64,000 nt of DNA from Ahniella affigens (lineage in GTDB: Bacteria > Pseudomonadota > Gammaproteobacteria > Xanthomonadales > Ahniellaceae). A program made the translations under genes and the position numbers. Shown here piece by piece: positions 38,245 to 52,904 of this stretch (position 1 is the stretch's first letter; every line of letters begins with the position of its first letter). Under the pieces are notes generated by a model, which was not told the DNA's origin, made no database searches, and saw only the letters and a program-made list of their open reading frames with translations. The DNA lies in NCBI RefSeq assembly GCF_003015185.1, contig NZ_CP027860.1, positions 2,418,001 to 2,482,000 of the forward strand, read 5' to 3'.

Positions 38245-41200
38245 ATGACTTCGATGCTGAATGCCCCGATTTCGCAAGCAGCCCCCTCCCCAACCCTCCC
38301 CCGCTATCGCGGGAGAGGGAGCCAAACATCCGCCGCTCCCACCTCAGCGCAAGCCCCCACTTCTCCCGCTCCCACGCGAGCAGGAGAGGCCCCCACTTCT
38401 CCCGCTTCCACGCCAGTGGGAGAGGGCCGGGGAGAGGGCTACTTGCCGCAAGCTTCCAGTCGCACCCCAGCACACCTCGATCCCGACTTTCGTCGGGATG
38501 ACGACAACAAAAACCGCCCGCGAACCACCACCCTCGTCATCCCGACGAAAGTCGGGACCCAGAGCAACCTCGCGACCAACCCCCAAAACACCGTCATCCC
38601 GACGAAAGTCGGGACCCAGGGCAATCTGCGAAAGATCCTCGCCATCGCCGCCAGCCTCACATTCACCCTGCTGTCGTTCACCGCAACCAACGCAATCGCC
38701 GCCGAAGAAAAACCCGTCGACCGCACCTACGTCACCGCCCCGGCCGCCCCTGAAAACCAAACCCAAGCCGAAGCCGACGCCAAAAGCGCCGGCTGCGTCA
38801 CCTGCCACACCACCACCGACCGCCACACCATGCACCGCTCCCCAGCGGTCGTGCTCGGCTGCACCGACTGCCACGGCGGCAACGCCACCGTCAAAGCGCC
38901 AGGCGGTGACTTCGAACCCCGCCACGCCGTCGAATACGGCGAGCATGTGCCCAAACACGGCAAGCTCGGCAAACACAAGGACGACCACTTCGGCCACGCG
39001 TCGCCCTTCGACCCGCTGTACCAAAGCGCGATCGACAACGCCCACGTCTTGCCGCGCTACCCGAGCCATTTCCCAAGCAGCGCAAACCCACCGGGCAACT
39101 TCGCCAAGCTCAACAAAGAAGCCCCCGAATTCATCCGCTTCGTCAACCCAGGTGATCTGCGCATTGCGCGCGAAGCCTGCGGTGCCTGCCATCTGCAAAC
39201 CGTGCAAGCCGTCGAACGCAGCCTCATGGCCACCAGCGCCATGCTCTGGGGCGGTGCGAGCTACAATAATGGCATTCTCCCGTACAAGCGCTACATCCTC
39301 GGCGAGAGCTACACCCGCGATTCCGAACCCAACATCGTCAAAGCCCTGATCGCCACCGGCGATGAAAAGATGATGGCCCGCGGCATCCTGCCGCAGCTGT
39401 TCCCACTGCCGGCTTGGGAAGTCATCCCACCCGCCGACATCTTCCGCGTCTTCGAACGCGGCGGCCGCAACATCAACACCACGTTCGCCGAAACCGGCTT
39501 GCCGAACTCCCTCGGCCAGATCCAACGCCTGGAAGAACCCGGCCGCCCCGACCTCAAACAAAGCAACCGCGGCCCCGGCACCGGTCAACGCGTCGCCATT
39601 CCGGTGTTGAACATCCACAAGACCCGCCTGAACGACCCGCACCTGTGGTTCCTCGGCACCAATGACAACCCGGGCGACTTCCGCTCCTCCGGCTGCACCG
39701 CCTGCCACGTTGTCTACGCGAACGACCGCGACCCGCGCCATTCCGCCGGCTACGCGCAATTCGGTAGCACCGGCAGCACGCAGACGATCGACCCAACCAT
39801 CCCGAAGAACGAACCCGGCCACCCACTGAAGCACGAGTTCACCCGCGCCATCCCCACCAGCCAGTGCATGGTGTGCCACATGCATCAGCCGAACATGTTC
39901 ATCAACACCATGCTCGGTTACATCATGTGGGACTACGAGTCCGACGCGCCGTCCATGTGGCCAAAGAAAGAAGCCAAGCCCACGGACGAAGAAATTCGCC
40001 TGATCAACGAGCGCAACCCCGAAGAAGCGGCGATTCGCGGCCTATGGTCCGACCCGAAATTCCTGCACCAGGTCGCCGAGAACAACCCGAACCTCAAGGA
40101 CACGCAATTCGCCGACTATCACGGCCACGGCTGGAACTTCCGCGCCGTGTTCAAGCGTGATCGCGAAGGCACCCTGCTGACCGCCGACAATCAACCCATC
40201 GACGACACTGACCCGAAGAAGTTCGAGAAAGCCGTGCACCTGTCGTCGATCCACGTCGACCTCGGCCTGCAATGCGTGGACTGCCACTTCTCGCAAGATG
40301 CGCACAGCAATGGCCACATCGTTGGCGAAGTCATGGCCGGTGTCGAAATCCAATGCCAGGACTGCCATGGCACACCCGACGCGTATCCGAACCTCTCGAC
40401 CAGTGGGCCGATGGCCAGTCCGAAAGGCAAGCAACTCGCCCTACTCCGCAACCCGGACGGCAAGAAGCGCTTTGAGTGGGTCGATGGCAAGCTGATCCAA
40501 CGCTCCGTCGGCACGCCCGGTTTGGAATGGACCTTGTCGCTGCTGAAAGACACGTCAGACAGCCAGAAGCCGGACTACAACGCCAAAGCCACGCGCGCCC
40601 ACACCGTTTCCAACAACCCGAACAACCAAACCTGGGGCGCCGATGTGCCCAAGGCCGAGCGCGCGCACAACGAAGACAAGATGCTCTGCTACACCTGCCA
40701 CACCTCGTGGACCACGAGCTGCGGCGGCTGCCATCTGCCGATCCAGGCCAACTGGAAGACCCCGCGCAACCACTACGAAGGCGGCGACACGCGCAACTTT
40801 GCGACGTACAACCCACAAGTCGCGCGTGACGACATGTTCCAGCTCGGCATTCATGGCGAGATCAAAGGCAACAAGATCGCACCGGTCCGCTCCAGCTCGG
40901 CGCTCGTCCTCAGTTCGACCAACAGCAATCGCGAACGCATCTACATCCAGCAACCACCGATTGCTGCGTCGGGCTTCTCGTCGCAAGCCTTCGCACCACA
41001 CTACCCGCACACCGAGCGCCGCGGCGAAACCAAGACGTGTACCGATTGCCACTTAAGCGAGCAGAACGACAACAACGCCATCATGGCCCAGTTGCTGCTG
41101 CAAGGCACCGACTTTGTCGACTTCCTCGGCTTCAACGCGTTTGTCGGCGGCGAGAAGTCCATCAGCGCGATCCCAGTCACCGAGTGGGATGAACCGCAAG

Positions 41201-42522
41201 CCGTGATCGGCTCGTACCTGCACCGCTACGCCTACCCCGAGCGCTTTGAGAAACACACCAAGCGCGGCCAGGAACTGCCCGAAGGCTACAACCACAAATC
41301 CAACGCGGCTCAGTGCCTGCAGCATCGCGGCGAATATCTGTTTGTCGCCGAAGGCAGCAAGGGCCTGCGCGTCTATGACATCGCGTCCGTTGCCAACAAA
41401 GGCTTCTCACAACGCATCGTCAGCGCACCGAGCTCCGAACTCGGTCAAGACATCAACGTCGAATCGAAGAACGCCACGTGCGTGGTATTGCCGACCACCC
41501 AGCCCATCCATCCGGCCCGCAATCAAGGCGACCTGATGCGCGTGACCAACATGGAGCAGGCGTTCCTCAGCATCTACAACTACGCGTTTGTGACCGATGC
41601 CGAAGAAGGCCTGATCCTCGTCGACGTCAACACCTTGTCCGACGGCGAGTTCCGCAACAACCACCTCGACCGCGCCCTCACCTGGAACGAAAACGGCGTG
41701 CTGACCGGCGTCCGCCACCTCGCCATTGCCGGCACCTGGTTCTACGCGGCCACGCCCAAGGGCATTGTCGTACTCGACATGACCGAAGCACTCAAGCCCC
41801 GCTACGTCACCACGATTGCCCTCAACGACCCACGCGCGAGCCAAGTCCAGTTCCGCTACCTGTTCGTGACCACCGCGAAAGGACTCGAAGTCGTCGACGT
41901 CACCAAACCCGATGCCCCAAGACTCACCGGCGCTAGCGTCACGCTCGCCAGCGCCCATAAGCTGCACGTCGCCCGCACCTACGCCTACATCGCCAACGGC
42001 GCTGAGGGCATCGCCATCGTCAACGTGACGAAACCCGAGGCGCCCACGCTGTACCAAATGTTCAACGCCAACGGCCAAATCCAGGACGCCCGCGACGTCG
42101 TCGTCGCCAGCACTAACGCCTCCCTCTACGCCTACATCGCCGACGGCACCCACGGCCTAAAAGTCGTCCAACTCTTCTCCCCCGAAACCCAACCCAAGTT
42201 CTACGGCTTCAGCCCACAGCCGAAGCCGCAGCTAATCGCCCACTGGCAAACCCCGTCGCCGGCTTTGTCGCTGAGCCGCGGCTTAGAACGCGATCGTGCG
42301 GTGGATGAGACAGGTGGCCAGATTGCCGTGTTGGGCCGTATTGGCTCCAGACCGTTCACCCATCCGGAGATGGAGCGGTTGTATCTGGACAGCCAGGGCA
42401 AGCCTTGGACCGTGACGGATCAGGTGGAGGGGCCGAATGGGGTGATTTCGAAGCCGTTGGAGTGGAAGGCTAATCGGACGATTGATACTCAACAGGCCAG
42501 TGGCAAGGATGACATCCGATGA
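38245..42522 (+). CDS. Ten-heme cytochrome c with LVIVD propeller
   Basis: 1425 residues from ATG 38245, but the signal peptide core (KILAIAASLTFTLLSFTATNAIAA) only begins at residue 130. Codons ~10-127 are palindromic repeats read in frame. A CTG at 38626, behind CAGGGC, would give a normal signal peptide. I count ten CXXCH motifs (first at C184, second at C206, the rest to about residue 940). From ~1025 on there are about six LVIVD-type propeller blades (LFVAEGSKGLRVYDI, YAYIANGAEGIAIVNV). The protein is likely periplasmic or surface-exposed and carries electrons; the acceptor is unknown. It forms an operon with the lipoprotein and the barrel. Confidence 0.85.
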   Translation: MTSMLNAPISQAAPSPTLPRYRGRGSQTSAAPTSAQAPTSPAPTRAGEAPTSPASTPVGEGRGEGYLPQASSRTPAHLDPDFRRDDDNKNRPRTTTLVIPTKVGTQSNLATNPQNTVIPTKVGTQGNLRKILAIAASLTFTLLSFTATNAIAAEEKPVDRTYVTAPAAPENQTQAEADAKSAGCVTCHTTTDRHTMHRSPAVVLGCTDCHGGNATVKAPGGDFEPRHAVEYGEHVPKHGKLGKHKDDHFGHASPFDPLYQSAIDNAHVLPRYPSHFPSSANPPGNFAKLNKEAPEFIRFVNPGDLRIAREACGACHLQTVQAVERSLMATSAMLWGGASYNNGILPYKRYILGESYTRDSEPNIVKALIATGDEKMMARGILPQLFPLPAWEVIPPADIFRVFERGGRNINTTFAETGLPNSLGQIQRLEEPGRPDLKQSNRGPGTGQRVAIPVLNIHKTRLNDPHLWFLGTNDNPGDFRSSGCTACHVVYANDRDPRHSAGYAQFGSTGSTQTIDPTIPKNEPGHPLKHEFTRAIPTSQCMVCHMHQPNMFINTMLGYIMWDYESDAPSMWPKKEAKPTDEEIRLINERNPEEAAIRGLWSDPKFLHQVAENNPNLKDTQFADYHGHGWNFRAVFKRDREGTLLTADNQPIDDTDPKKFEKAVHLSSIHVDLGLQCVDCHFSQDAHSNGHIVGEVMAGVEIQCQDCHGTPDAYPNLSTSGPMASPKGKQLALLRNPDGKKRFEWVDGKLIQRSVGTPGLEWTLSLLKDTSDSQKPDYNAKATRAHTVSNNPNNQTWGADVPKAERAHNEDKMLCYTCHTSWTTSCGGCHLPIQANWKTPRNHYEGGDTRNFATYNPQVARDDMFQLGIHGEIKGNKIAPVRSSSALVLSSTNSNRERIYIQQPPIAASGFSSQAFAPHYPHTERRGETKTCTDCHLSEQNDNNAIMAQLLLQGTDFVDFLGFNAFVGGEKSISAIPVTEWDEPQAVIGSYLHRYAYPERFEKHTKRGQELPEGYNHKSNAAQCLQHRGEYLFVAEGSKGLRVYDIASVANKGFSQRIVSAPSSELGQDINVESKNATCVVLPTTQPIHPARNQGDLMRVTNMEQAFLSIYNYAFVTDAEEGLILVDVNTLSDGEFRNNHLDRALTWNENGVLTGVRHLAIAGTWFYAATPKGIVVLDMTEALKPRYVTTIALNDPRASQVQFRYLFVTTAKGLEVVDVTKPDAPRLTGASVTLASAHKLHVARTYAYIANGAEGIAIVNVTKPEAPTLYQMFNANGQIQDARDVVVASTNASLYAYIADGTHGLKVVQLFSPETQPKFYGFSPQPKPQLIAHWQTPSPALSLSRGLERDRAVDETGGQIAVLGRIGSRPFTHPEMERLYLDSQGKPWTVTDQVEGPNGVISKPLEWKANRTIDTQQASGKDDIR
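38272..38625. repeat. Palindromic repeats inside the cytochrome frame
   Basis: Units: an E-type block with CTCTCCC-like hairpins (38275-38456); then TCCCGAC-TTTC-GTCGGGA (38481-38498); and two inverted units CCCGAC-GAAA-GTCGGG (38541-38556 and 38598-38613). The reading frame stays open across all of them. Confidence 0.85.
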
Positions 42523-43649
42523 CAAATTCAAACTTAACTACAAGTCACGATACCGAAGCCGCCATTCTGGAGAAGTATCCGATTGAAGATATTGAAGACA
42601 ATCTTGATGATGATTCTGTGCAGGCAGTTAAATACTCAATCTCTAGCTTTGGCGTCGATTATGATACCGAAGGCGCTGTTCGCCGCCTAAAGCGAGGAGA
42701 CATAGCTGTCCCTGACTTTCAGCGGAGCTATGTCTGGAACATTAGTGAAGCGTCTCGCCTTGTCGAATCGCTCCTTCTCGGATTGCCAGTCCCAGGCGTC
42801 TTCCTGGCGGCGGAGCATGAGACAAAGCAACTCCTCGTAATCGATGGACAACAACGGCTTAAGAGCCTATTGTTCTTCTACGAGGGATTCTTCAATCCGA
42901 TCGATGGCGAGACAACTCGCCGAGTGTTTAGCCTCCAGAAAGTCCAGAAACATCTCGAGGGCAAAACTTACGCCACGCTTTCCGAAGAAGAGCGTAGGAC
43001 ACTCGACAATGCTGTAATACATGCAACGGTAGTCAGACAGGACTCACCCGAAAACGATGACACCGGCATGTATCACATTTTCGAGAGACTAAATACCGGC
43101 GGCAGAAAATTAGTGCCTCAGGAAATTCGGACTGCCGTCTATAGGGGGCAACTGATTTCCGCGCTATCGCGCATGAATGCGAATCCTGATTGGCGTGCAA
43201 TTTACGGGCCAAGCAGCCCACGGTTGAAGGACCAGGAGCTCATAACGCGGTATCTTGCCTTCCGAACTGGGTGGCAGTCCTACCAAGCACCAATGACTGA
43301 TTTCATATCCTCATTCTGCAAAAAGAACCAAAACATCGCAGATGCAGATTCTCGATTGCTTGAGCAGGAGTTTTCAGCGGTTATCGCATTGGCACGATCA
43401 TCTCTTGGTGATCGCGCGTTTCGCCCCAAGCGCGCACTGAATGCAGCACTTCTCGAAGCGTTCATGGTTGCATTGTCAAGCCTGATGCAGAGCAACCAAG
43501 GCAGTATTAGTCAAGAGAAGATTGCGAGCTCTTACTCGAAGCTAATCGCTGATCCTGGTTTTATCAGTGCTATTAGCAAATCGACCGCTAACGAGAAGAA
43601 TGTTCAACTGAGATTCCTGCTAGCCAAGCAGTATCTTGAGCAACCATGA
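42519..43649 (+). CDS. DUF262 domain protein
   Basis: 376 residues; its ATG overlaps the cytochrome stop (ATGA). The DUF262 (GmrS-like/ParB-like nuclease) core is clear: IAVPDFQRSYVWN at 62-74 and VIDGQQRLKSLLFFY at 107-121, including the IDGQQR motif. There is no GmrD-type HNH partner domain. Codon use is much more AT-rich than upstream genes, which suggests transfer. It overlaps the following HEPN gene (ATGA). DUF262 proteins often serve in phage defence or modified-DNA restriction; that role is inferred here. Confidence 0.85.
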   Translation: MTNSNLTTSHDTEAAILEKYPIEDIEDNLDDDSVQAVKYSISSFGVDYDTEGAVRRLKRGDIAVPDFQRSYVWNISEASRLVESLLLGLPVPGVFLAAEHETKQLLVIDGQQRLKSLLFFYEGFFNPIDGETTRRVFSLQKVQKHLEGKTYATLSEEERRTLDNAVIHATVVRQDSPENDDTGMYHIFERLNTGGRKLVPQEIRTAVYRGQLISALSRMNANPDWRAIYGPSSPRLKDQELITRYLAFRTGWQSYQAPMTDFISSFCKKNQNIADADSRLLEQEFSAVIALARSSLGDRAFRPKRALNAALLEAFMVALSSLMQSNQGSISQEKIASSYSKLIADPGFISAISKSTANEKNVQLRFLLAKQYLEQP

Positions 43650-44125
43650 TTCGCTCGAATGCAATTAGAGGCAAAGCCGACTCGCTGAAGCGTTTGATAA
43701 CTTCTGTCAAGTCCAACAAGGACCTCCCCGACGAAGTGGTCGGGCATATGGGGCGTTATCTCTGTGTTATCTGCGCAGGATTCATCGAAACAAGTCTCGC
43801 AGAGGTGTTCGCTGACTACGTAACAAAGCGATCCGCAGAGGAGGTAGCCAGCTTTTGTCTCGATACCCTCAGGAAAATCCAGAACCCAAAGGCTTCCCGA
43901 ATTGAGGAGGTGTGCGCGAGATTCGACAAGTCAATTTCAGTGCCACTGAAGCAGTACCTTGATGACGGCGCCGGCGCTCGAAGACTTTCAATCGATTCTG
44001 TAATGAACAATCGGCACCAGATTGCGCATGGGAAACAGAGTTCAATTACAATTGGTCAGGTCGAAACGCATCTCGAAAGGGCAATCGATGTTTTTGTTTT
44101 CATCGAGAATCATTTTCACCTTTAG
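43646..44125 (+). CDS. HEPN-like protein paired with DUF262
   Basis: 159 residues, all-helical. The C-terminal NNRHQIAHG (R123, H128) is the Rx4H motif of HEPN ribonucleases, and the fold resembles the RiboL-PSP-HEPN/MAE_28990 type. It is translationally coupled to the DUF262 gene. Together they look like a two-gene defence or toxin-type module. RNase activity is an inference from the motif. Confidence 0.7.
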   Translation: MIRSNAIRGKADSLKRLITSVKSNKDLPDEVVGHMGRYLCVICAGFIETSLAEVFADYVTKRSAEEVASFCLDTLRKIQNPKASRIEEVCARFDKSISVPLKQYLDDGAGARRLSIDSVMNNRHQIAHGKQSSITIGQVETHLERAIDVFVFIENHFHL

Positions 44126-44385: not shown

Positions 44386-45012
44386 CTATGAATTCTGGGC
44401 GCCGTGACCGCGATGCTTTCCTGGAAGACTCGGACACTTAATCGCACGATCGAACCCGATGAGATCAACAACGCTTGAAATGTGCTGAGGCATCACACGC
44501 ATACGGGCACCGATCAGCGCACCGAAAACGGCGTCTGCCAACGCATGACCGCCGAGTTGGTCCTGAACCTCCGAGTGGGCAATTAGATCCATTGTGCAGA
44601 CTAGACGGATATTGGGAAACCGTTCGGAGCAGAGCCTAATCGCCTTCCGTTCGTCAACCACCGCAACAGCTGACTCCTGAGCTGAATACGCGACAGTTGC
44701 GGCTTCGCCGTCGTCAAGGGTATCGGCAGCGACTCCTACCACAAGACTCTCGAACATAGCCAACCCTTCACTTTTGAGCGACACAATGTCGACAAGCCCA
44801 ATTCGAACAAGACCAGCCAGCATGTCTGCATCGCGTCTTGCGTTTGCGTGACAATTCTGAAGTTCATGGGCAGCCAAATCCACTACCACCGCGCGGAAAG
44901 GTAGTGCTTTCAAAATCGCTTCCGCGCAGCCTGTCGCATTCAGATTAATTACGACACTAGTGTCCATTACAACGACTTTGTCGCCATCAGAGAGGGAGCT
45001 TTGGAGCGCCAT
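44386..45012 (-). CDS. PIN-domain protein
   Basis: 208 residues from ATG 45012, overlapping the end of the XRE-ImmA gene by 26 bases. The N-terminal strand VVVMDTSVVINLNA carries the first metal-binding Asp of PIN ribonucleases, and acidic residues follow in HANARRDADML, DDGEAATVAYSA and VVDERKAIRL, consistent with the four-acid site. It is the last gene of a four-gene reverse operon. An ImmA/XRE regulator with a PIN protein is a known toxin-antitoxin-like pairing; the target RNA is unknown. Confidence 0.7.
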   Translation of the reverse strand: MALQSSLSDGDKVVVMDTSVVINLNATGCAEAILKALPFRAVVVDLAAHELQNCHANARRDADMLAGLVRIGLVDIVSLKSEGLAMFESLVVGVAADTLDDGEAATVAYSAQESAVAVVDERKAIRLCSERFPNIRLVCTMDLIAHSEVQDQLGGHALADAVFGALIGARMRVMPQHISSVVDLIGFDRAIKCPSLPGKHRGHGAQNS

Positions 45013-46186
45013 CGGGCTCGTCCTCCAGCATCTCAACATCTTGAAGCATCCCCCTCAACTCAACGCGATCCAAGTTCAGGAGCTGCGCGAGCTGCCCCTC
45101 GCTGAGGAGTTCGCGTCGGTAGGCCTCTGCGGCCAACAGATTAAGGCGAAGCGTCGTTGGGCGATCGGCAGCCCCCTTGTAAAGATCGGGCAACTGCAGA
45201 TCGCCTAGCACTTGCCGCTCTTGCGTATCCGTAATGCCTCCATTCGCTACGAACCAATCCCAGCTTCCCTTCTTGGTTAGACTGAGGTCTTCAAGCCGGC
45301 GCACAATTGCCTCACGCGACACCCCGAAGTAGTGCGCTAAAACGATAACATGCCTGCGGGTTAGTTGCGACGATCCTGCAGTCACCTCACCAAACTTCTG
45401 CTTTATCGCGTTCGCTGGGGTTAGGAACGCAATTCCGAATGCAGTAGCATACCGCTCTTCGCGCGTGTTCCCCAGTTCACTCAGATGCAGTATCTCGGGT
45501 TCCCTGCGAACCGATATGAAATGTCCAAGTTCATGGGCGCCAGACTGGTTACGCCGTGCGCGCGGATGATTGGCATTTAGAAGAATGCAAGCCCCGAGCA
45601 CATCGTCGAACACAAATAGGCCCGACACATTGCCGTCGACACGCCTAACATATACGCGGACCCCGAGTTCCATTTCAAGAAAGGTCACAATATCGTGTAC
45701 CGGCGCCTGACCCAAACCACACCTCTGGCGAAGCTCAGCTGCGTCATGCTCTGCTTGGACCCTGACATCTCCAGGCAAGATCGGACGCTCCGCCGGATAG
45801 TTTCGAGCCCTCTTGACACCCAATAGATTTTCGAGCTCGACCTCCGCGCGCGCGAGATCGGCCAAGATAGCAGTTGCCTGGGCTGCTACTTGGTTGTTAT
45901 CGGTTAGCTTACGAAATCGGGGCGCAAGATCGACATGCACGGCTTCTTGCCTGAGAAGCGCATTTACCGAAGTGCCATAGAGTTTCGCGAATTGTTGAAG
46001 CTCAGCTATTCGGACTCGTCTTTGCCCTCGCTCGATCGCAACTAAGGTAGTTCGAGCGATCGACATAGCGTCAGCAACATCTTTCTGAGTAAGTCTTGCA
46101 ACCTCGCGCGCGATTCGAAGGCGTTCGCCAATCTCTGCGAGCGGCATAGGGTCATGCGTCGTGCCGATCATGACCTTCTGGTCCAT
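44987..46186 (-). CDS. XRE regulator with ImmA/IrrE metallopeptidase
   Basis: 399 residues. A Cro/CI-type helix-turn-helix is at about 16-72 (LRIAREVARLTQKDVADAMSIARTTLVAIERGQRRV), followed by a zinc-peptidase domain with GAHELGHFISVRRE, the HEXXH signature, and a downstream Glu-rich helix (EERYATAFGIAFLTPANAI). Proteins of this build act as antitoxin-like or damage-responsive regulators. It overlaps the QueC-like gene by 19 bases and the PIN gene by 26, so all are one transcript. It may bind the dyad in the operon promoter (48164-48174). Confidence 0.88.
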   Translation of the reverse strand: MDQKVMIGTTHDPMPLAEIGERLRIAREVARLTQKDVADAMSIARTTLVAIERGQRRVRIAELQQFAKLYGTSVNALLRQEAVHVDLAPRFRKLTDNNQVAAQATAILADLARAEVELENLLGVKRARNYPAERPILPGDVRVQAEHDAAELRQRCGLGQAPVHDIVTFLEMELGVRVYVRRVDGNVSGLFVFDDVLGACILLNANHPRARRNQSGAHELGHFISVRREPEILHLSELGNTREERYATAFGIAFLTPANAIKQKFGEVTAGSSQLTRRHVIVLAHYFGVSREAIVRRLEDLSLTKKGSWDWFVANGGITDTQERQVLGDLQLPDLYKGAADRPTTLRLNLLAAEAYRRELLSEGQLAQLLNLDRVELRGMLQDVEMLEDEPDGAPKLPL

Positions 46187-47556
46187 TTCACGATGAACGA
46201 TGACTCACCAAGCGCATCAAGAAATCCATTCCATTCTCGTTTATGCTGAGACAATAGCCGTGCAAGTCGAGCACCAGCCTCGCTCTCAGTGAGCGAAAGT
46301 GCCTTTGCCAACTGTGACGCTGCAAGTTTGATCGTTCCATTGTTCATTTGATCCTCCTGCAGGGCAGATAACTCAGCGAGATGGAGCGTGCCCGCGATCG
46401 CGTATTGATACTGAGCCTTCAACACATGCGTGAATCCGCCTGCCGCTCCTTCATTGAAAGAAGATGCCTTGAGGTTTTCCCAAACGTAAGTATCGGGCCT
46501 TTCGGAGAGACCTGCTGCATGCACGCTCATTCGTCGCAGCTGACATGCGGCGCAGACTCCACATTGTCGCTTCTTGTGCTCAACCGAAACTTGGTAATTT
46601 GGTTGCCAACAAGACCAAGTGGTTGCCCAAGCTGGGCCATCACAGCACTCTTTGACAAAGGAATCGAGGGTTTCTCCCTTTGTATACCAAATCCTCGGAA
46701 ACGCATAGCAAATACGGCGCCCGTACAGCGCGAACAACACCTTCTCCATGCGGGACATAAACATCGGATGGTTTCGATAGTCCTCGTAAGTTTGGCCGAC
46801 TGGGACAAGTGCGGGCCCGAGTGCACCCTGGCCGCTTTCTGGCACAATGATCCTGTTCGCCTGCACGAGGTATGCCGCAAGTCCACTGACCATGGCAAAC
46901 TTGAAACCACGTGACCGAGCAGACGACTCCACAAACTTGGAGTTGGTTCGCTTGACCTTATAGGGTATCGAAGTAAATGGTTGCTTCTCGGTTGACTCCG
47001 GCGAGCAGAAGCGCTTGGTCCCGAGTCTCACGCGCATCATTCTGTCGCCCATCTGCTTGTGCATTAGTCCTGCCACGGCACACGAATCAAGGCCGTCGCT
47101 AAATGGAATCACTGCATCAATGTCGCTCGCTATGGGGATTGGGACTTGTTTCGGCAAGGTGAACGGCGTTCGGCGTGCGATGAATGATAGGCTCCATCGA
47201 TCGCCCGTAACAAAGCACAACGCGTCGTGGAGTGCTCGGCTGACTTCGCTTGCATTCCAACGTTCCGGTTCGTGAACAGGAATTCGGAGTTCGATCTCCC
47301 GCCCCCAATGTTGGACTGGCCGGCGAAAGATGCGATCGCAGAACTCTACGGCGCCCATTACTATGAGCGCGTCGTAAATGATCGGCTCCCACTCTCGTAA
47401 GCAGTAGCTCTCAAGAAGCTCGGTCGTGAAAGTGAGGTTAGTTCCGATATGGCACGGGGTGCGCCCCGCGCGAGGACGAGAGCCGGCGTCAAGGACATCG
47501 ACTGCAAGACTTGCCAGTGGTTTCATGTCTGGGGTCGATTTGTGGCTGGTCTTCAC
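46168..47556 (-). CDS. QueC-like PP-loop enzyme
   Basis: 462 residues from GTG 47556 overlapping the previous stop (GTGA); ATG at 47526 is an alternative. The PP-loop PFSDGLDS is at 151-158. A zinc cluster CGVCAACQLRR (C332, C335, C338, with C316 upstream) matches QueC, which makes 7-cyano-7-deazaguanine. It is about twice the length of housekeeping QueC (~230 residues), with an extra ~140-residue N-terminus and a C-terminal helical part. No other queuosine gene is near. QueC-like proteins are known in Qat and type-IV CBASS defence, which suggests a defence role here by analogy. Confidence 0.75.
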   Translation of the reverse strand: MKTSHKSTPDMKPLASLAVDVLDAGSRPRAGRTPCHIGTNLTFTTELLESYCLREWEPIIYDALIVMGAVEFCDRIFRRPVQHWGREIELRIPVHEPERWNASEVSRALHDALCFVTGDRWSLSFIARRTPFTLPKQVPIPIASDIDAVIPFSDGLDSCAVAGLMHKQMGDRMMRVRLGTKRFCSPESTEKQPFTSIPYKVKRTNSKFVESSARSRGFKFAMVSGLAAYLVQANRIIVPESGQGALGPALVPVGQTYEDYRNHPMFMSRMEKVLFALYGRRICYAFPRIWYTKGETLDSFVKECCDGPAWATTWSCWQPNYQVSVEHKKRQCGVCAACQLRRMSVHAAGLSERPDTYVWENLKASSFNEGAAGGFTHVLKAQYQYAIAGTLHLAELSALQEDQMNNGTIKLAASQLAKALSLTESEAGARLARLLSQHKREWNGFLDALGESSFIVKWTRRS

Positions 47557-48125
47557 AGCGCCACTCCTTCATCAAGACCGACGTGTTTTCTGGCGTGAGA
47601 TGGGCGTTTCACTCTACCTTGTTGCGAAAAAAGCAGCCGAGCTAACGCCCGTCGGTCTCCATCTGCAAGCGCGTTCCAGACTCGTTCCCGAACCTTTCGA
47701 GTAAGGCTGGGCGGAGCCTCGCGAATGTAGTGCTCTTCGATCTGACGATACGTGCGAGCTTCCCAAGCCTCCACGGTTCTCTGAGTGGCTTCAATCATTC
47801 CGATTTCACCACTAAGTCCTTCCTGTACAACCATTGCGGCATGCTCAATCAGGAGCCGTCCTAGCGGGCGGCCCGCAGCAAGGTCCGACAGCGCTTCGAC
47901 CTCTTCAACGCGATCACTTGCAAATAGCCGGTGCTGTGGTTTTAGGAACAGACCGTGAATAGCGACCACCAGAGCGGCAGGCACGTCCTTGCGCCACGTT
48001 TTCTCAAGCGCAGTGAACGCTGCGTCGGCAAGGTCCTCGCGACTGTAGTTCCCATTTTCGGCGAGCTTTGCAAGCTCCCTCCAGTGTCTTGCTAGGGGCA
48101 GACTGCGAAAAGGGCCGTCGCTCAT
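47553..48125 (-). CDS. Helical protein, first gene of the QueC-like operon
   Basis: 190 residues, with an excellent AGGAGGT before ATG 48125. All-helical, with no signal peptide or transmembrane segment; Trp and Arg are frequent (HWRELAKLAENGNYSREDLADAAF, EKTWRKDVPAALVVAIHG). I do not recognise the family. It precedes and overlaps the QueC-like gene, so it is probably a partner of that enzyme. Confidence 0.65.
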   Translation of the reverse strand: MSDGPFRSLPLARHWRELAKLAENGNYSREDLADAAFTALEKTWRKDVPAALVVAIHGLFLKPQHRLFASDRVEEVEALSDLAAGRPLGRLLIEHAAMVVQEGLSGEIGMIEATQRTVEAWEARTYRQIEEHYIREAPPSLTRKVRERVWNALADGDRRALARLLFSQQGRVKRPSHARKHVGLDEGVAL

Positions 48126-48157
48126 GGCACACCTCCTATGTCAGGTATGGTGAACTT

Positions 48158-48186
48158 TTTATCTGACAATGTCAAGTTCTATCCAA
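48158..48186 (-). promoter_or_regulatory. Promoter and operator of the QueC-like operon
   Basis: Read on the reverse strand: TTGGAT (48186-48181), 17 bases, GATAAA (48163-48158). The spacer carries the dyad TGACATTGTCA (48174-48164), well placed for a Cro/CI-type repressor such as the XRE-ImmA protein of the same operon. A second TGACAT half-site lies between the -10 and the start codon, near 48139-48144. Confidence 0.55.
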
Positions 48187-48199
48187 ATGGAGCCACGCA

Positions 48200-48274
48200 G
48201 GACATCGATGGACGCCCCGACAAAGTCAAGAACGACCTTGCCGGACATCGATGGACGCCCCGACAAAGTCAAGA
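48200..48274. repeat. Two 32-bp direct repeats
   Basis: GGACATCGATGGACGCCCCG followed by ACAAAGTCAAGA occurs at 48200-48231 and again at 48243-48274, an 11-base gap apart, just upstream of the operon promoter. With two units and so short a gap this is not a CRISPR array. Confidence 0.8.
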
Positions 48275-48423: not shown

Positions 48424-48558
48424 AGTGATTCGTTGAGGGCTGGATGGTCGCGGTTAGGTTGCAGTCCTTGGTTTTGATCTGGTTTCTGGTTGACGACAGT
48501 CGCACTGGTCAGCGGGCAAGGGGTCACGGACATCGATTCGGCGTCTTGGTGGGAAGCC

Positions 48559-48900
48559 TTGGCGGACACCCAACAATTCAGAAATTTCTGACCCCAATCT
48601 CAGATTTCAGCCAATGCGCCGGGTCTGGCGGAATGGCAAGATCACCTGAACTCCCCGCCAAGGAAGGCGATCAGCATGCCGCAAGCGCGCGAACGAACCG
48701 TTCCGACCAACTGCTCAGGCTATTACCACTGCGTCAGCCGCTGTGTCCGGCGGGCTTGGCTCTGTGGCTACGACAAGGTCAACGACAAGAACTACGACTA
48801 TCGCCGCCAGTGGGTTGAGGACCGGCTGATGGCGCTGGCCGAGGCTTATTCAGTCTCGATCTACGCCTATGCCGTCATGAGCAATCATTTGCATGTGGAG
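48559..48900 (+). mobile_element. Y1 element, copy 1 (truncated)
   Basis: Left end GGACACCCAACAATTCAGAA, the conserved ~110-base leader and the first ~74 codons of the transposase (ATG 48676). It stops right after the HUH motif (NHLHV, about 48890), where copy 2 begins. Confidence 0.85.
48676..48897 (+). pseudogene. Y1 transposase fragment (copy 1)
   Basis: Encodes residues 1-74 of the same transposase as copies 3 and 6, including the HUH histidines but not the catalytic Tyr, so it cannot act. Confidence 0.85.
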
Positions 48901-49058
48901 GGACCATACCGGACACCCACCAACTCAGAAATTTCTGACCCAATTTCAGATTTCAGCCAATGCGCCGGGTCTTTGGGATTGGCAAGATCACCTGAACTCC
49001 CCGCCAAGGAAGGCGATCCCCATGCCGCAAGCCCGCGAACGAACCGTTCCGACCAACC
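48901..49058 (+). mobile_element. Y1 element, copy 2 (leader only)
   Basis: Left end and leader, then only 12 codons of transposase from ATG 49021 (MPQARERTVPTN), after which copy 3 begins. It shows that one element inserted into, or recombined with, another near the same site. Confidence 0.8.
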
Positions 49059-50428
49059 GGCCATACAGGACACCCACCAATTCAGAAATTTCTGACCCCA
49101 ATCTCAGATTTCGCCCAATGCGCCGGGTCTTGGGGATTGGCAAGATCCCCTGAACTCCCCGCCAAGGAAGGCGATCACCATGCCGCAATCGCGCGAACGA
49201 ACTGTTCCGATCAACTGCTCGGGCTTTTACCACTGCGTCAGCCGCTGTGTTCGTCGGGCTTGGCTCTGTGGCTACGACAAGGTCAACGACAGGAATTACG
49301 ACTACCGCCGCCAGTGGGTTGAGGACCGGCTGTTCGTGCTGGCCGAGGCCTATTCAGTCTCGATCTACGCCTATGCCGTCATGAGCAATCACCTGCATGT
49401 GGTGGTGAAGGTCGATGCGGTGGCCGCGCAGGATTGGTCCGATGAAGAGGTGGCTCGGCGCTGGTGCCAGGTGTTCCCGGGTTCCGACGATCCGGAGGCA
49501 CAACAGGCGCGTATCTCTAACATCGCTGCAGCGCCGGAGCGGGTGGCAACGTATCGGGATCGCCTGCGCAGTTTGAGTTGGTTTATGCGCAGCCTCGCAG
49601 AACCGGTCGCGCGTCAGGCCAACCAGGAGGACGACTGCACCGGGCGGTTCTGGGAAGGCCGATTCAAAGCCCAGGCCTTAGTTGACGAGCGTGCGTTGCT
49701 GGCGGCCATGGTCTATACCGACTTGAACCCGATTCGGGCAAGGACGACTGAGAAGATCGTCGAATCGAAGCACACTGGCGTTTTCCAACGCATCGTCAAG
49801 ATTCGTGCAAAAGAGTTGCTGCGGTTCCAACCAGTTCGGCCGATCGCAGGCATACCGCAGGAGGCCCTGAGTCTCAGCAACAAGGCCTATTTGCAACTGG
49901 TGGACGACACCGGCCGCCAATGGCACCGGGGCAAGTCTGGCCGAATTGCCACCAGCACGCGATCCATCCTGGCTGAACTCAAGATCGAACCCCACCAATG
50001 GGATGACCAAGTCCGTGGCTTCGGGAAGAGCCGCGTCACCGCAATGGGCGCGTTGGACCGACTCATCGAGTTCGCCCGCGACACGCACCGGCACTGGCTT
50101 GTGGGGTATGGACTGGCGCGCCGGGTTTATTGGAGAGCAATGGCGTTCTGATCGCCACTGGCCCATTCTCGATCATCCACGCGAGGTCCAACTCGAGAGC
50201 GATGAGCTTTGTTGCGTTAACACAGGCCATTCGGTGGGAAATCGTCACGCCCTACTTCGCCGACAGCTGCGCGTCGGGCACTTAGCTGCGGCCCTAGTCT
50301 GCACAGTCTTAGTCCCCTTTGGCAAGCGCGCACTGCAGATTCGACCCGAAGTCTGATCACTCGAATCCCGATCACGGAAACATCGCCGTGCCGCGCGCGG
50401 CCTGGCGAAGTACATGGATGTCCACCAG
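49059..50428 (+). mobile_element. Y1 (HUH) transposon, full copy 3
   Basis: About 1.37 kb. Left end: GGCCATACAGGACACCCACC, then the 14-bp palindrome TCAGAAATTTCTGA (49082-49095). Right end: a hairpin CACGG-N8-CCGTG (50373-50390) and the terminal ACATGGATGTCCACCA (to ~50428). The length agrees within a few bases with copy 6. Subterminal hairpins and no inverted terminal repeats fit single-strand Y1 transposition as in IS200/IS605. Confidence 0.85.
49180..50151 (+). CDS. Y1 (HUH) transposase, full length, copy 3
   Basis: 323 residues. The N-terminal Y1 domain has YHCVSRCVRRAWLCG, HUH histidines H71 and H73 in SNHLHVVV, and candidate nucleophile Tyr179 in AAMVYTDLNPIRA, the pattern of IS200-like and REP-associated tyrosine transposases. 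The C-terminal ~130 residues are basic and helical. It nicks and rejoins single-stranded DNA at the element ends. All residues are intact, and it differs from copy 6 by only scattered substitutions, so it may be active and could act on the shorter copies. Confidence 0.9.
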   Translation: MPQSRERTVPINCSGFYHCVSRCVRRAWLCGYDKVNDRNYDYRRQWVEDRLFVLAEAYSVSIYAYAVMSNHLHVVVKVDAVAAQDWSDEEVARRWCQVFPGSDDPEAQQARISNIAAAPERVATYRDRLRSLSWFMRSLAEPVARQANQEDDCTGRFWEGRFKAQALVDERALLAAMVYTDLNPIRARTTEKIVESKHTGVFQRIVKIRAKELLRFQPVRPIAGIPQEALSLSNKAYLQLVDDTGRQWHRGKSGRIATSTRSILAELKIEPHQWDDQVRGFGKSRVTAMGALDRLIEFARDTHRHWLVGYGLARRVYWRAMAF

Positions 50429-50638
50429 TCTCCGCTCGACCGGAAGAATTGGCTGTTCGCCAGCTCACCCCAAGCCGGTCAACGCGCCGCGAACACAATG
50501 AGCCTCGTGCACAGCGCAAAGGCCACTGGCCATGACCCGATGGCCTACCTCGCCGACATCCTCGAACAAATCCCCGTCACGCCACCTGAGCAAATTGCAG
50601 GGTTACTGCCGCCGGTTTGGAAGCCGGCGCAAGTATGA
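50429..50638 (+). pseudogene. IS66-family transposase remnant
   Basis: About 70 codons in frame: DRKNWLFASSPQAGQRAANTM, then SLVHSAKATGHDPMAYLADILEQIP. This is the C-terminus of an IS66 TnpC transposase, directly after the right end of Y1 copy 3. The rest of the IS is missing, so the Y1 element or a deletion removed it. Confidence 0.8.
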
Positions 50639-50681
50639 GATGAAGCGCGTCGGGAGGTGCGGTGGCTGGAGGCTTACACTC

Positions 50682-50767
50682 GACCGCGAGTCTGCTCACT
50701 CGAATCCCGATCGCGGCAACATCGCCTCGCGATGCAGGTCCGGCGAATTGCTCGGATGTCCACCAAT
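50682..50767 (+). mobile_element. Solo right end of the Y1 element
   Basis: Matches the last ~85 bases of copy 3, including an imperfect CGCGG-N8-CC-CGCG hairpin and the terminal CTCGGATGTCCACCAATTC. No left end or transposase is attached. The remaining bases up to 51021 show no gene except the leader of the following membrane protein gene. Confidence 0.7.
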
Positions 50768-51021
50768 TCACCGCGACTGGTCTTGAGCTGTCAAAAGCTG
50801 CTTAACGAAGTGTCAGGGAAACCGGGGCAAGATCATTCCCGTCCCTGCGAGGGCACAATACCGTGAGACGGACCGGCAGCCAGGGGCGAGTGGCTGTTTA
50901 CGATTATCGCGCCTTGTGGAGCCACCGAAAGTGCTGCTCATTACGCTACTAAACACTTTGTGGTAATAGAGCCATTCGAATCGCGCGAACCAATTCAACG
51001 TCATTTTTGCCTGGAGGAACA

Positions 51022-51864
51022 ATGGATCTCGTTGCATTGCCACAATCGATCAGCAGCTTCCTTGACGCGCTCATCCCCTCACTCTCCCAGGCGGTGTTCC
51101 TCGCCATCTTTCTTCTTTACTTGCTTGGAAAAGACGCTATAGCCAAATTGCTCGAAAAGGCTCTTACCAATATCGGTTCGCCCACAGTCCTTGCGGAGGA
51201 CGCCTTCGTGAGAGAATCAGGCATGTTGAAACTGGTGCCGGTCGCGGTTCTATTCTGCTCACTTCTCGCTGTCGTGTCGTTGGCTCGACTGATCAGCTTT
51301 ATAGGCGATCAACTTCCAGGGCAGCTCTACTATCACCAGCCAGCGTTGATGTTCCAGTCCCTTCCGGCAGATCAGTTGGCTGATTTTTGGTCGCTCTACC
51401 CAGCTGCGAGCGACCCACACACGCTTTATCTGGTGGTAGATCAGCAGATCACACTGCTTGAGGCAAAAACCCAAGGACAGACGAGATTTCCCTGGGCTTA
51501 TCATGAGGAACGATGGGCAAGTTCGAGTGATCGAATTGCGAATGTCAAGTTCTACTTGCTATTAGGACTCGCAGTCTGTGTAGCGAGTTGGAAATTTGGT
51601 TCCAACTGGCAACGAGCGACGAAGCGGTACTTCCTGTCAATCCTTCTGGCAATTCCTATTGCCGGATACTCAGGCGCAATACAGATTGAGGCGCTGCGCC
51701 AGTCTCAGTCCTCAAAATTGAACTTCCTGCTTGCCCACAAAATATCGACAGACAAACAGGCTTCGGAGACACTTGGGGACAAATCCAAGCAGGAGCACTT
51801 TCGAGAAATGGTTCAAGAGTATCTAAATGCTCATGCCGAGCCCGCCTTCAGTATGGGGCAATAG
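51022..51864 (+). CDS. Membrane protein, function unknown
   Basis: 280 residues from ATG 51022, with GGAGGAA eight bases upstream. Four transmembrane segments: about 18-37, 72-95, 176-194 and 206-224, with a ~80-residue soluble loop between the second and third and a basic C-terminal tail. It is AT-richer than the core genes. It lies between two Y1 copies and may be cargo or an older resident gene. I do not recognise it. Confidence 0.6.
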   Translation: MDLVALPQSISSFLDALIPSLSQAVFLAIFLLYLLGKDAIAKLLEKALTNIGSPTVLAEDAFVRESGMLKLVPVAVLFCSLLAVVSLARLISFIGDQLPGQLYYHQPALMFQSLPADQLADFWSLYPAASDPHTLYLVVDQQITLLEAKTQGQTRFPWAYHEERWASSSDRIANVKFYLLLGLAVCVASWKFGSNWQRATKRYFLSILLAIPIAGYSGAIQIEALRQSQSSKLNFLLAHKISTDKQASETLGDKSKQEHFREMVQEYLNAHAEPAFSMGQ

Positions 51865-51908
51865 CCGATCTTCAAAGTGCCACGAACAATGCGCAGAGGA
51901 GCTAGGAG

Positions 51909-52313
51909 GGACCCATACAGGGCACCCAGCAATTCAGAAGTATCTGACCCCAATCTCAGATTTCAGCCAATGTGCCGGGTCTTGCGGAATGGCTAGATCA
52001 CCTGAACTCCCCGCCAAGGAAGGCGATCAGCAAACCGCAAGCCCGCGAACGAACCGTTCCGACCAACTGCTCGGGCTATTACCACTGCGTCAGTCGCTGT
52101 GTCCGTCGGGCCTGGCTATGTGGCTATGACAAAGTCAACGACAAGAATCACGACTACCGCCGCCAGTGGGTTGAGGATCGGCTGATGGCGCTGGCCGAGG
52201 CCTATTCAGTCTCGATCTACGCCTATGCCGTCATGAGCAACCATCTGCATGTGGTAGTGAAGGTCGATGCGGTGGCCGCGCAAGACTGGTCAGATGAAGA
52301 GGTGGCTCGACGC
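51909..52313 (+). mobile_element. Y1 element, copy 4 (truncated)
   Basis: Left end GGACCCATACAGGGCACCCA, leader and the first ~94 codons of the transposase frame, cut off where copy 5 starts. Confidence 0.85.
52032..52312 (+). pseudogene. Y1 transposase fragment without start codon (copy 4)
   Basis: The conserved ATGCCGCAAGC start reads AAACCGCAAGC here, so the start codon is lost. The frame then runs through the HUH motif to EEVARR, followed by the left end of the next copy. Confidence 0.82.
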
Positions 52314-52314
52314 C

Positions 52315-52904
52315 GGCCATACCGGACACCCACCAATTAAGAAATTTCTGACCCCAATCTCAGATTTCAGCCAATGCGTCGGGTCTTGGGGATTGGCAAG
52401 ATCACCTGAACTCCCCGCCAAGGAAGGCGATCAGCATGCCGCAAGCGCGTGAACGAACCGTCCCGACCAACTGCTCAGGCTTTTACCACTGCGTCAGTCG
52501 CTGTGTCCGGCGGGCCTGGCTATGTGGCTACGACAAAGTCAATGACAAGAATTACGACTACCGCCGCCAGTGGGTCGAGGACCGGCTGATGGCGCTGGCC
52601 GAGGCCTATTCAGTCTCGATCTACGCCTATGCCGTCATGAGCAATCATTTGCATGTGGTCGTGAAGGTCGATGCAGTTGCTGCGCAGCATTGGTCGGATG
52701 AAGAGGTAGCTCGGCGTTGGTGCCTGGTGTTCCCGGGTTCCGACGATCCGGAGGCACAACAGGCACGTATCTCCAACATCGCTGCCGCGCCGGAGCGGGT
52801 TGCAACCTATCGGGATCGCCTGCGTAGTTTGAGTTGGTTTATGCGCAGCCTCGCCGAGCCGATTGCCCGACAGACCAATCGCGTTGATTGCGCGGATGTC
52901 CGCA
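52315..52904 (+). mobile_element. Y1 element, copy 5 (internal deletion)
   Basis: Left end and leader, about 147 codons of transposase (ATG 52436), then directly the right terminus GCGCGGATGTCCGC (52891-52904). Both ends are kept while the transposase C-terminus, including the catalytic Tyr, and most of the right arm are gone: a non-autonomous derivative. Confidence 0.8.

Follow-up and report, generated by a model that had tools for sequence, protein, structure and literature searches.

A four-gene operon joining a QatC-like enzyme to a peptidase-regulated PIN protein: a candidate defence system

What is a relative of the queuosine enzyme QueC doing in an operon with a peptidase-regulated toxin module? 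The question is raised by a locus in a 64,000-nucleotide stretch of the Ahniella affigens genome (G000:C1:2418001-2482000, the whole of which we call the window), where four overlapping genes are called on the minus strand at 44386-48125. An earlier reading of the letters (the original prediction) had seen there an enzyme of the deazaguanine type combined with a toxin module under peptidase control. Our results fit this idea and refine it through the relationship of the enzyme to QatC, its YxDxR motif and the N-terminus of the protein encoded by gene 1. The operon is an obligate four-gene system in which, we think with about even confidence, a QatBC-type module for N-terminal protein modification is built into one unit with an RNase toxin that a peptidase controls, probably for phage defence of the abortive-infection type. 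The genes are:

47553-48125, minus strand: gene 1, helical protein of 190 amino acids (aa); putative substrate or sensor, QatB-like role
46168-47556, minus strand: gene 2, QatC-family PP-loop/Zn enzyme of 462 aa, GTG start
44987-46186, minus strand: gene 3, 399 aa; XRE helix-turn-helix (HTH) and ImmA/IrrE (M78) metallopeptidase, UPF0175-like C-terminus
44386-45012, minus strand: gene 4, PIN-domain-like protein of 208 aa, putative RNase toxin

For gene 4, a start at 45012 is likelier than one at 45039. The predicted layout of four overlapping reverse-strand genes agrees with these coordinates and with the overlaps of 4, 19 and 26 nucleotides (nt) between genes 1/2, 2/3 and 3/4; the motifs PFSDGLDS, CGVCAAC and HELGH are all present, as is a PIN-like acidic set of residues.

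Do the four genes belong together? With hidden Markov models for the four families, all of them were found in identical order and on the same strand in 98 of 101 loci (a few of which are near-identical strains), and the other three (L032, L053 and L077) stop at a contig edge within or just past gene 3. The loci, on genomes and plasmids, come from Alpha-, Beta- and Gammaproteobacteria, Acidobacteria, Planctomycetes and others. They were collected via gene 2, independently of the N-terminal motif of gene 1 discussed below: a species-genome scan with alignment A2 confirmed 209 loci, 80 of which were kept, and a plasmid tblastn gave 25 records with close gene 2 relatives, whose annotated neighbourhoods hold the same four genes and whose unannotated cases were settled by tblastn. 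Single-sequence pattern scans had found no relatives; it was the alignment-based scan that succeeded. The genes form an obligate system with conserved order and strand, and they are translationally coupled, the overlaps recurring at 96/99, 82/99 and 91/97 of the 1/2, 2/3 and 3/4 junctions; the pairwise divergences of the four proteins are correlated as well (r 0.87-0.92). Recurrence of the four genes near defence genes in unrelated genomes is what the original prediction had asked for; homologues occurring singly or in queuosine loci, which would have spoken against it, are not the pattern found, the loci carrying the four-gene operon.

The association also holds when plasmids are searched from the other genes. 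Gene 2 accompanies gene 1 in 17/17 records and gene 3 in 25/25, beyond which the identity of gene 3 relatives falls from 50% to 32%; this gene 3 subfamily never occurs on plasmids without genes 1 and 2. Gene 4 is found with gene 2 in 25/26 cases, the sole exception being an orphan on a plasmid of Microvirga sp. VF16 (L132 6001-6579), with no genes 1-3 within 6 kb. Phage and viral contigs yielded no copies of the system. Two copies are broken over two reading frames, by a frameshift or a sequencing error: gene 1 in S. fredii NXT3 (L016 4392-4974) and gene 2 in Mesorhizobium huakuii (L021 4920-6381).

What kind of enzyme does gene 2 encode? PADLOC QatC matches it at 3.5e-32, and hhalign aligns it with QatC over the full length at 1e-36. 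Its AlphaFold2 model, with a predicted local distance difference test (pLDDT) score of 89.7, superposes on QatC (9y01_B) with Z 29.6 over 386 aligned residues, against 11.4 for QueC and 9.2 for Cap9, and Foldseek matches it to QatC at 9e-15; the cluster-2 residues of QatC (as in PMC13329287) are retained. Because its NCBIfam QatC score (119.7 bits) lies under the equivalog cutoff of 280, we regard gene 2, by sequence, as a distinct clade of the QatC family. Three sites matter here:

47083-47100, minus strand: PP-loop S153-D-G-L-D-S158 (SGGxDS in QatC and QueC)
46774-46788, minus strand: Y257-E-D259-Y-R261, which both hhalign and HMMER align with the YPDCR motif of canonical QueC
46543-46611, minus strand: Zn-site cysteines C316, C332, C335 and C338, invariant (99/99)

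The S, G, D and S of the PP-loop are invariant in 99/99 loci, its second position being D, E or N in 97/99 and G once; in YxDxR, the D and R are found in 99/99 and the Y in 93/99, the C of the QueC motif being replaced by Y or F. Since the STRT segment of QatC is replaced by a Y-x-D-x-R that falls on QueC YPDCR, gene 2 looks, in alignments and model, like a QatC body with an ancestral base pocket. In Cap9, whose YxD motif we take from PMC13279940 and PMC13329287, the Tyr and Asp recognise deazaguanine (PMC13279940). An idea that D259 and R261 were a new motif replacing T278 and T280 of QatC was dropped; both belong to the YPDCR motif. The "QueC-like PP-loop enzyme of 462 residues" of the original prediction thus becomes a full-length QatC relative with YxDxR; its predicted fold is that of QatC, and a base pocket is read from the YxDxR alignment. 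A match to PF06508 and the same motif would also suit the public annotation of gene 2 as a 7-cyano-7-deazaguanine synthase, serving housekeeping or salvage, but we find this very improbable: Ahniella affigens possesses a canonical QueC besides, gene 2 bears the QatC extensions, and instead of lying with queD, queE or queF it is always inside this four-gene operon.

If gene 2 modifies a protein, gene 1 is the natural candidate, on account of its first residues:

48081-48125, minus strand: conserved first 15 codons of gene 1 (MSDGPFRSLPLARHW), from a comparison of 100 loci

The consensus is M-[S/T]-D-G-P-[H/Y/F]-[R/K]-S-L..W, with an M[S/T]DG start in 98/100 loci, P5 in 99, W15 in 95 and S, T or P at position 2 in 99; D3 and G4 stand in 100/100, partly by construction, as the first start preceding xDG was taken (the starts in alignment A1 nevertheless agree with the annotated starts of plasmid records). 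Synonymous codons vary across this stretch, and the constraint therefore acts on the protein, whose body has a mean identity of only about 32%. Such an N-terminus is as expected of an N-terminally modified protein, by analogy with the MGTS of QatB, whose N-terminal Gly is essential, and with its CBASS counterpart MGGS (PMC13279940). The C-terminal [D/N][D/E]G[V/P] of gene 1 was dropped as evidence: its Gly codon is GGG or GGA in 90/98 loci, against a GGC-dominated body, and its conservation is partly due to the Shine-Dalgarno sequence of gene 2.

Is gene 1, then, a QatB? Its AlphaFold2 model is all-helical (pLDDT 88.3). In scans of Pfam, PADLOC and NCBIfam-type libraries the window protein matched no family significantly, and its relatives gave scattered weak hits; Foldseek returned nothing from the PDB under an E of 0.001, and the hhalign comparison with QatB was not significant (best P 0.016). 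In a second-look structure list QatB stands at ranks 4 and 9 (Z 4.6 and 4.4, below 5), with unrelated rows higher. Together with the QatC fold and motifs of gene 2, a GP-x4-P[LM]-x3-W tail resemblance and weak PADLOC QatB matches in 2/71, these ranks could be taken to mean that the operon is a divergent qatABCD subtype, with QatA and QatD swapped for XRE-ImmA and PIN and with gene 1 as a shortened QatB. We think this unlikely. The QatA KAP ATPase (whose absence the original prediction had noticed) and the QatD TatD nuclease gave no tblastn match in the 98 loci and the window, versus 4/4 in Qat controls, and the QatB model NF041924 is found in 0/5 genomes with the four-gene system versus 10/10 Qat genomes; moreover, gene 1 lacks MGTS, and the YxD lost in QatC is kept in the gene 2 clade.

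The other half of the operon is of a more familiar kind:

45521-45535, minus strand: HELGH zinc-peptidase motif of gene 3; H218, E219 and H222 invariant in 21 relatives

Gene 3 matches M78 (1e-14), HTH_31 (1.1e-11) and UPF0175 (3e-5), its relatives matching M78 in 21/21 cases and UPF0175 in 6/21, and its closest PADLOC model is RmrA (9.2e-26), as in RmrA-type antitoxins. Gene 4 matches PDC-S70 at 3e-6, which is weak for the window protein, and its PIN profile found no PDB sequence match; its relatives match PF01850 in 8/19 cases (best 5e-6), and the residues D17, S19, N23, E50, D101, E103, D120 and E121 are conserved. The predicted XRE-HELGH regulator is recovered in the window protein itself, the PIN-domain protein mainly through its relatives, and by sequence the two genes make up a peptidase/PIN toxin-antitoxin pair of a known type. 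Three-component COG2856-Xre/PIN toxin-antitoxin systems have been predicted (PMC2701414), and an ImmA/PIN association is described for RosmerTA antitoxins (PMC10440598).

Upstream of gene 1 lie the following elements:

48164-48175, minus strand: operator dyad TTGACATTGTCA, at about -49 in 94/100 loci; one genomic copy
48138-48143, minus strand: second half-site TGACAT, just upstream of the Shine-Dalgarno AGGAGG
48197-48274, minus strand: pair of 43-bp tandem units lying upstream of the operator; both contain a core, TTGACTTTGTCGGGG, that resembles it

With at most two mismatches, TTGACATTGTCA is present upstream of gene 1 in 94/100 loci (exactly in 58), mostly 47-52 nt from its start, where shuffled controls lead one to expect 0.6/100; in the whole genome it occurs once, at this operon. 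The original prediction had placed this dyad in the spacer of a sigma-70-like promoter. The dyad stands and is conserved; because it overlaps the putative -35 (TTGACA) instead of being confined to the spacer, and because a consensus scan found no good -10 at the operon head, "operator" is better supported by the sequence than "sigma-70 promoter". We infer that gene 3 binds it. TGACAT recurs at the same place beside the Shine-Dalgarno sequence in most of the 100 loci, and the tandem units are perhaps extra operator copies peculiar to the Ahniella affigens genome.

Is this a defence system, or simply a toxin-antitoxin? The neighbourhood is rich in defence genes: 116 adjacent genes matched 408 PADLOC families at E 1e-8 (AbiE, SoFic, PARIS AriA, Septu PtuA and others), versus 12 for 116 genes from elsewhere in 20 host genomes (these are counts of families, not of genes, and related models overlap, but the contrast is still large), and on plasmids the neighbours include AbiE, Shedu, Lit, Fic and DUF262. 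An ordinary XRE-ImmA/PIN toxin-antitoxin on mobile DNA, for which genes 1 and 2 provide the activating signal (a stress response, for example) with no role in phage defence, would agree with the known COG2856-Xre/PIN architecture (PMC2701414), with the frequency of the operon on plasmids and with an operator unique to it. We consider this improbable, given these defence neighbours, the role of QatC relatives in phage defence and the constant company of genes 1 and 2 with the plasmid-borne gene 3 subfamily.

How could the two halves work together? In the reading that we favour, gene 2, with ATP, would join a carboxylate of the 7-deazaguanine type to the N-terminal amine of gene 1 (Ser2 or Thr2 after Met removal), while gene 3 would bind TTGACATTGTCA, repress the operon and neutralise, as antitoxin, the PIN RNase of gene 4. 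On infection, a change in the complex of gene 1 and gene 2, or in how it is modified, would cause the ImmA peptidase of gene 3 to cleave its own HTH/antitoxin portion, a proteolytic switch that would derepress the operon and free a presumably toxic RNase.

Several points weigh against this scenario. We can only guess at the trigger and at the order in which signals pass. Sequence and model comparisons give no convincing case for homology between gene 1 and QatB, the first acceptor residue of gene 1 would be Ser or Thr and not Gly, and in one relative (L022) position 2 is Arg, a residue before which Met is unlikely to be removed. The persistence of the orphan gene 4 on the Microvirga plasmid is mild evidence against strong toxicity. 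Finally, canonical QueC is above cutoff in 36/43 host genomes, Ahniella affigens among them, but absent from 7/43; of these seven, four lack QueD, and with three models six give no QueE match and one a 22-bit fragment only (the same models missed two QueC-bearing genomes, so that the absence of QueE is less certain than that of QueC). In such hosts 7-carboxy-7-deazaguanine (CDG) may not be available, and yet their gene 2 retains YPDxR or YEDxR: either CDG is not the transferred group, or it comes from elsewhere, or the systems are idle. Intact systems in these hosts, and the fact that the QatC reaction is itself unresolved (PMC13279940), favour a variant in which a carboxylate other than a 7-deazaguanine is attached, or the N-terminus of gene 1 is merely adenylated. 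We take this variant seriously but hold it rather unlikely, as a base-recognition motif is retained (its D and R everywhere), as the QueE models are fallible and as some hosts may carry inactive systems. More speculatively, the phage itself might supply the base in hosts without a 7-deazaguanine pathway of their own; some phages do encode such pathways (PMC6884629).

The surroundings of the operon call for a few remarks of their own. Beside it lies a convergent pair (42519-44125, plus strand; 4-nt overlap), a DUF262/GmrSD_N protein (PADLOC NsnA 4.8e-71, PD-T4-2_A 1.8e-51) followed by a RiboL-PSP-HEPN protein (Pfam 4.4e-12), which is likely a second defence unit. On the other side, repeats of about 285-300 nt (48556-52600; 3-4 copies, 90-93% identity) contain truncated starts of a Y1-type (REP-associated) transposase, with a full copy at 49180-50151. 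A 1425-aa open reading frame (38245-42522, plus strand) has many CxxCH-type motifs, and the repeated VIPTKVGTQ-like segments at its N-terminus suggest a true start further downstream.

What would all this mean? Recent work has shown that, in type IV CBASS, QueC-family enzymes join a nucleobase to a protein. It is possible, though we put it forward tentatively, that the operon represents a third QueC-family immune system, a variant of neither Qat nor CBASS, in which a metallopeptidase repressor senses nucleobase conjugation at the N-terminal Ser/Thr of gene 1 and sets an RNase free. If true, toxin-antitoxin switching under peptidase control would be linked to protein-nucleobase conjugation, a pairing that did not turn up in the libraries and papers that we searched (largely open-access literature, in which no paper on these four genes came up; PADLOC was that of 2023, and newer catalogues may list the system). 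The gene 2 clade combines the body of QatC with an ancestral pocket of the YxD kind, and may for that reason make the chemistry easier to see.

How does the operon finally compare with what is known? With qatABCD it shares the QatC body, including the N- and C-terminal extensions, cluster-2 residues and Zn cysteines, and a helical partner with a conserved N-terminus encoded just upstream; it differs in having an XRE-ImmA/PIN module and neither QatA nor QatD, in the M[S/T]DGP start of gene 1 (MGTS in QatB) and its lack of a long disordered N-tail, in the S[D/E/N]GxDS PP-loop and in having YxDxR where QatC has STRT. With type IV CBASS, where Cap9 deazaguanylates the CD-NTase at its N-terminus, it shares a QueC-family enzyme with a Y-x-D motif beside a protein with a conserved N-terminus (MGGS in CBASS); however, Cap9 is minimal (about 185 aa), the effector is another one, and gene 1, predicted to be all-helical and matching no family, is not a CD-NTase. 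The original statement that no CD-NTase is present holds for the four genes and the annotated plasmid neighbours, no search aimed at CD-NTases having been made among neighbours. Canonical QueC has the same PP-loop, YxDxR and four-Cys Zn site, but gene 2 is of 462 aa versus about 222, with N- and C-terminal extensions, and lies outside any queuosine locus. As for RosmerTA and the COG2856-Xre/PIN systems (PMC10440598, PMC2701414), they too have an XRE-ImmA protein, an adjacent PIN-like toxin and their own operator, whereas here two obligate upstream genes are added, so that a two-gene RmrT/RmrA module is never seen, always four genes. Judged by its sequences, the system is not qatABCD and, by gene content, not type IV CBASS; the new element is the obligate union of a QatC-like half and a peptidase/PIN half.

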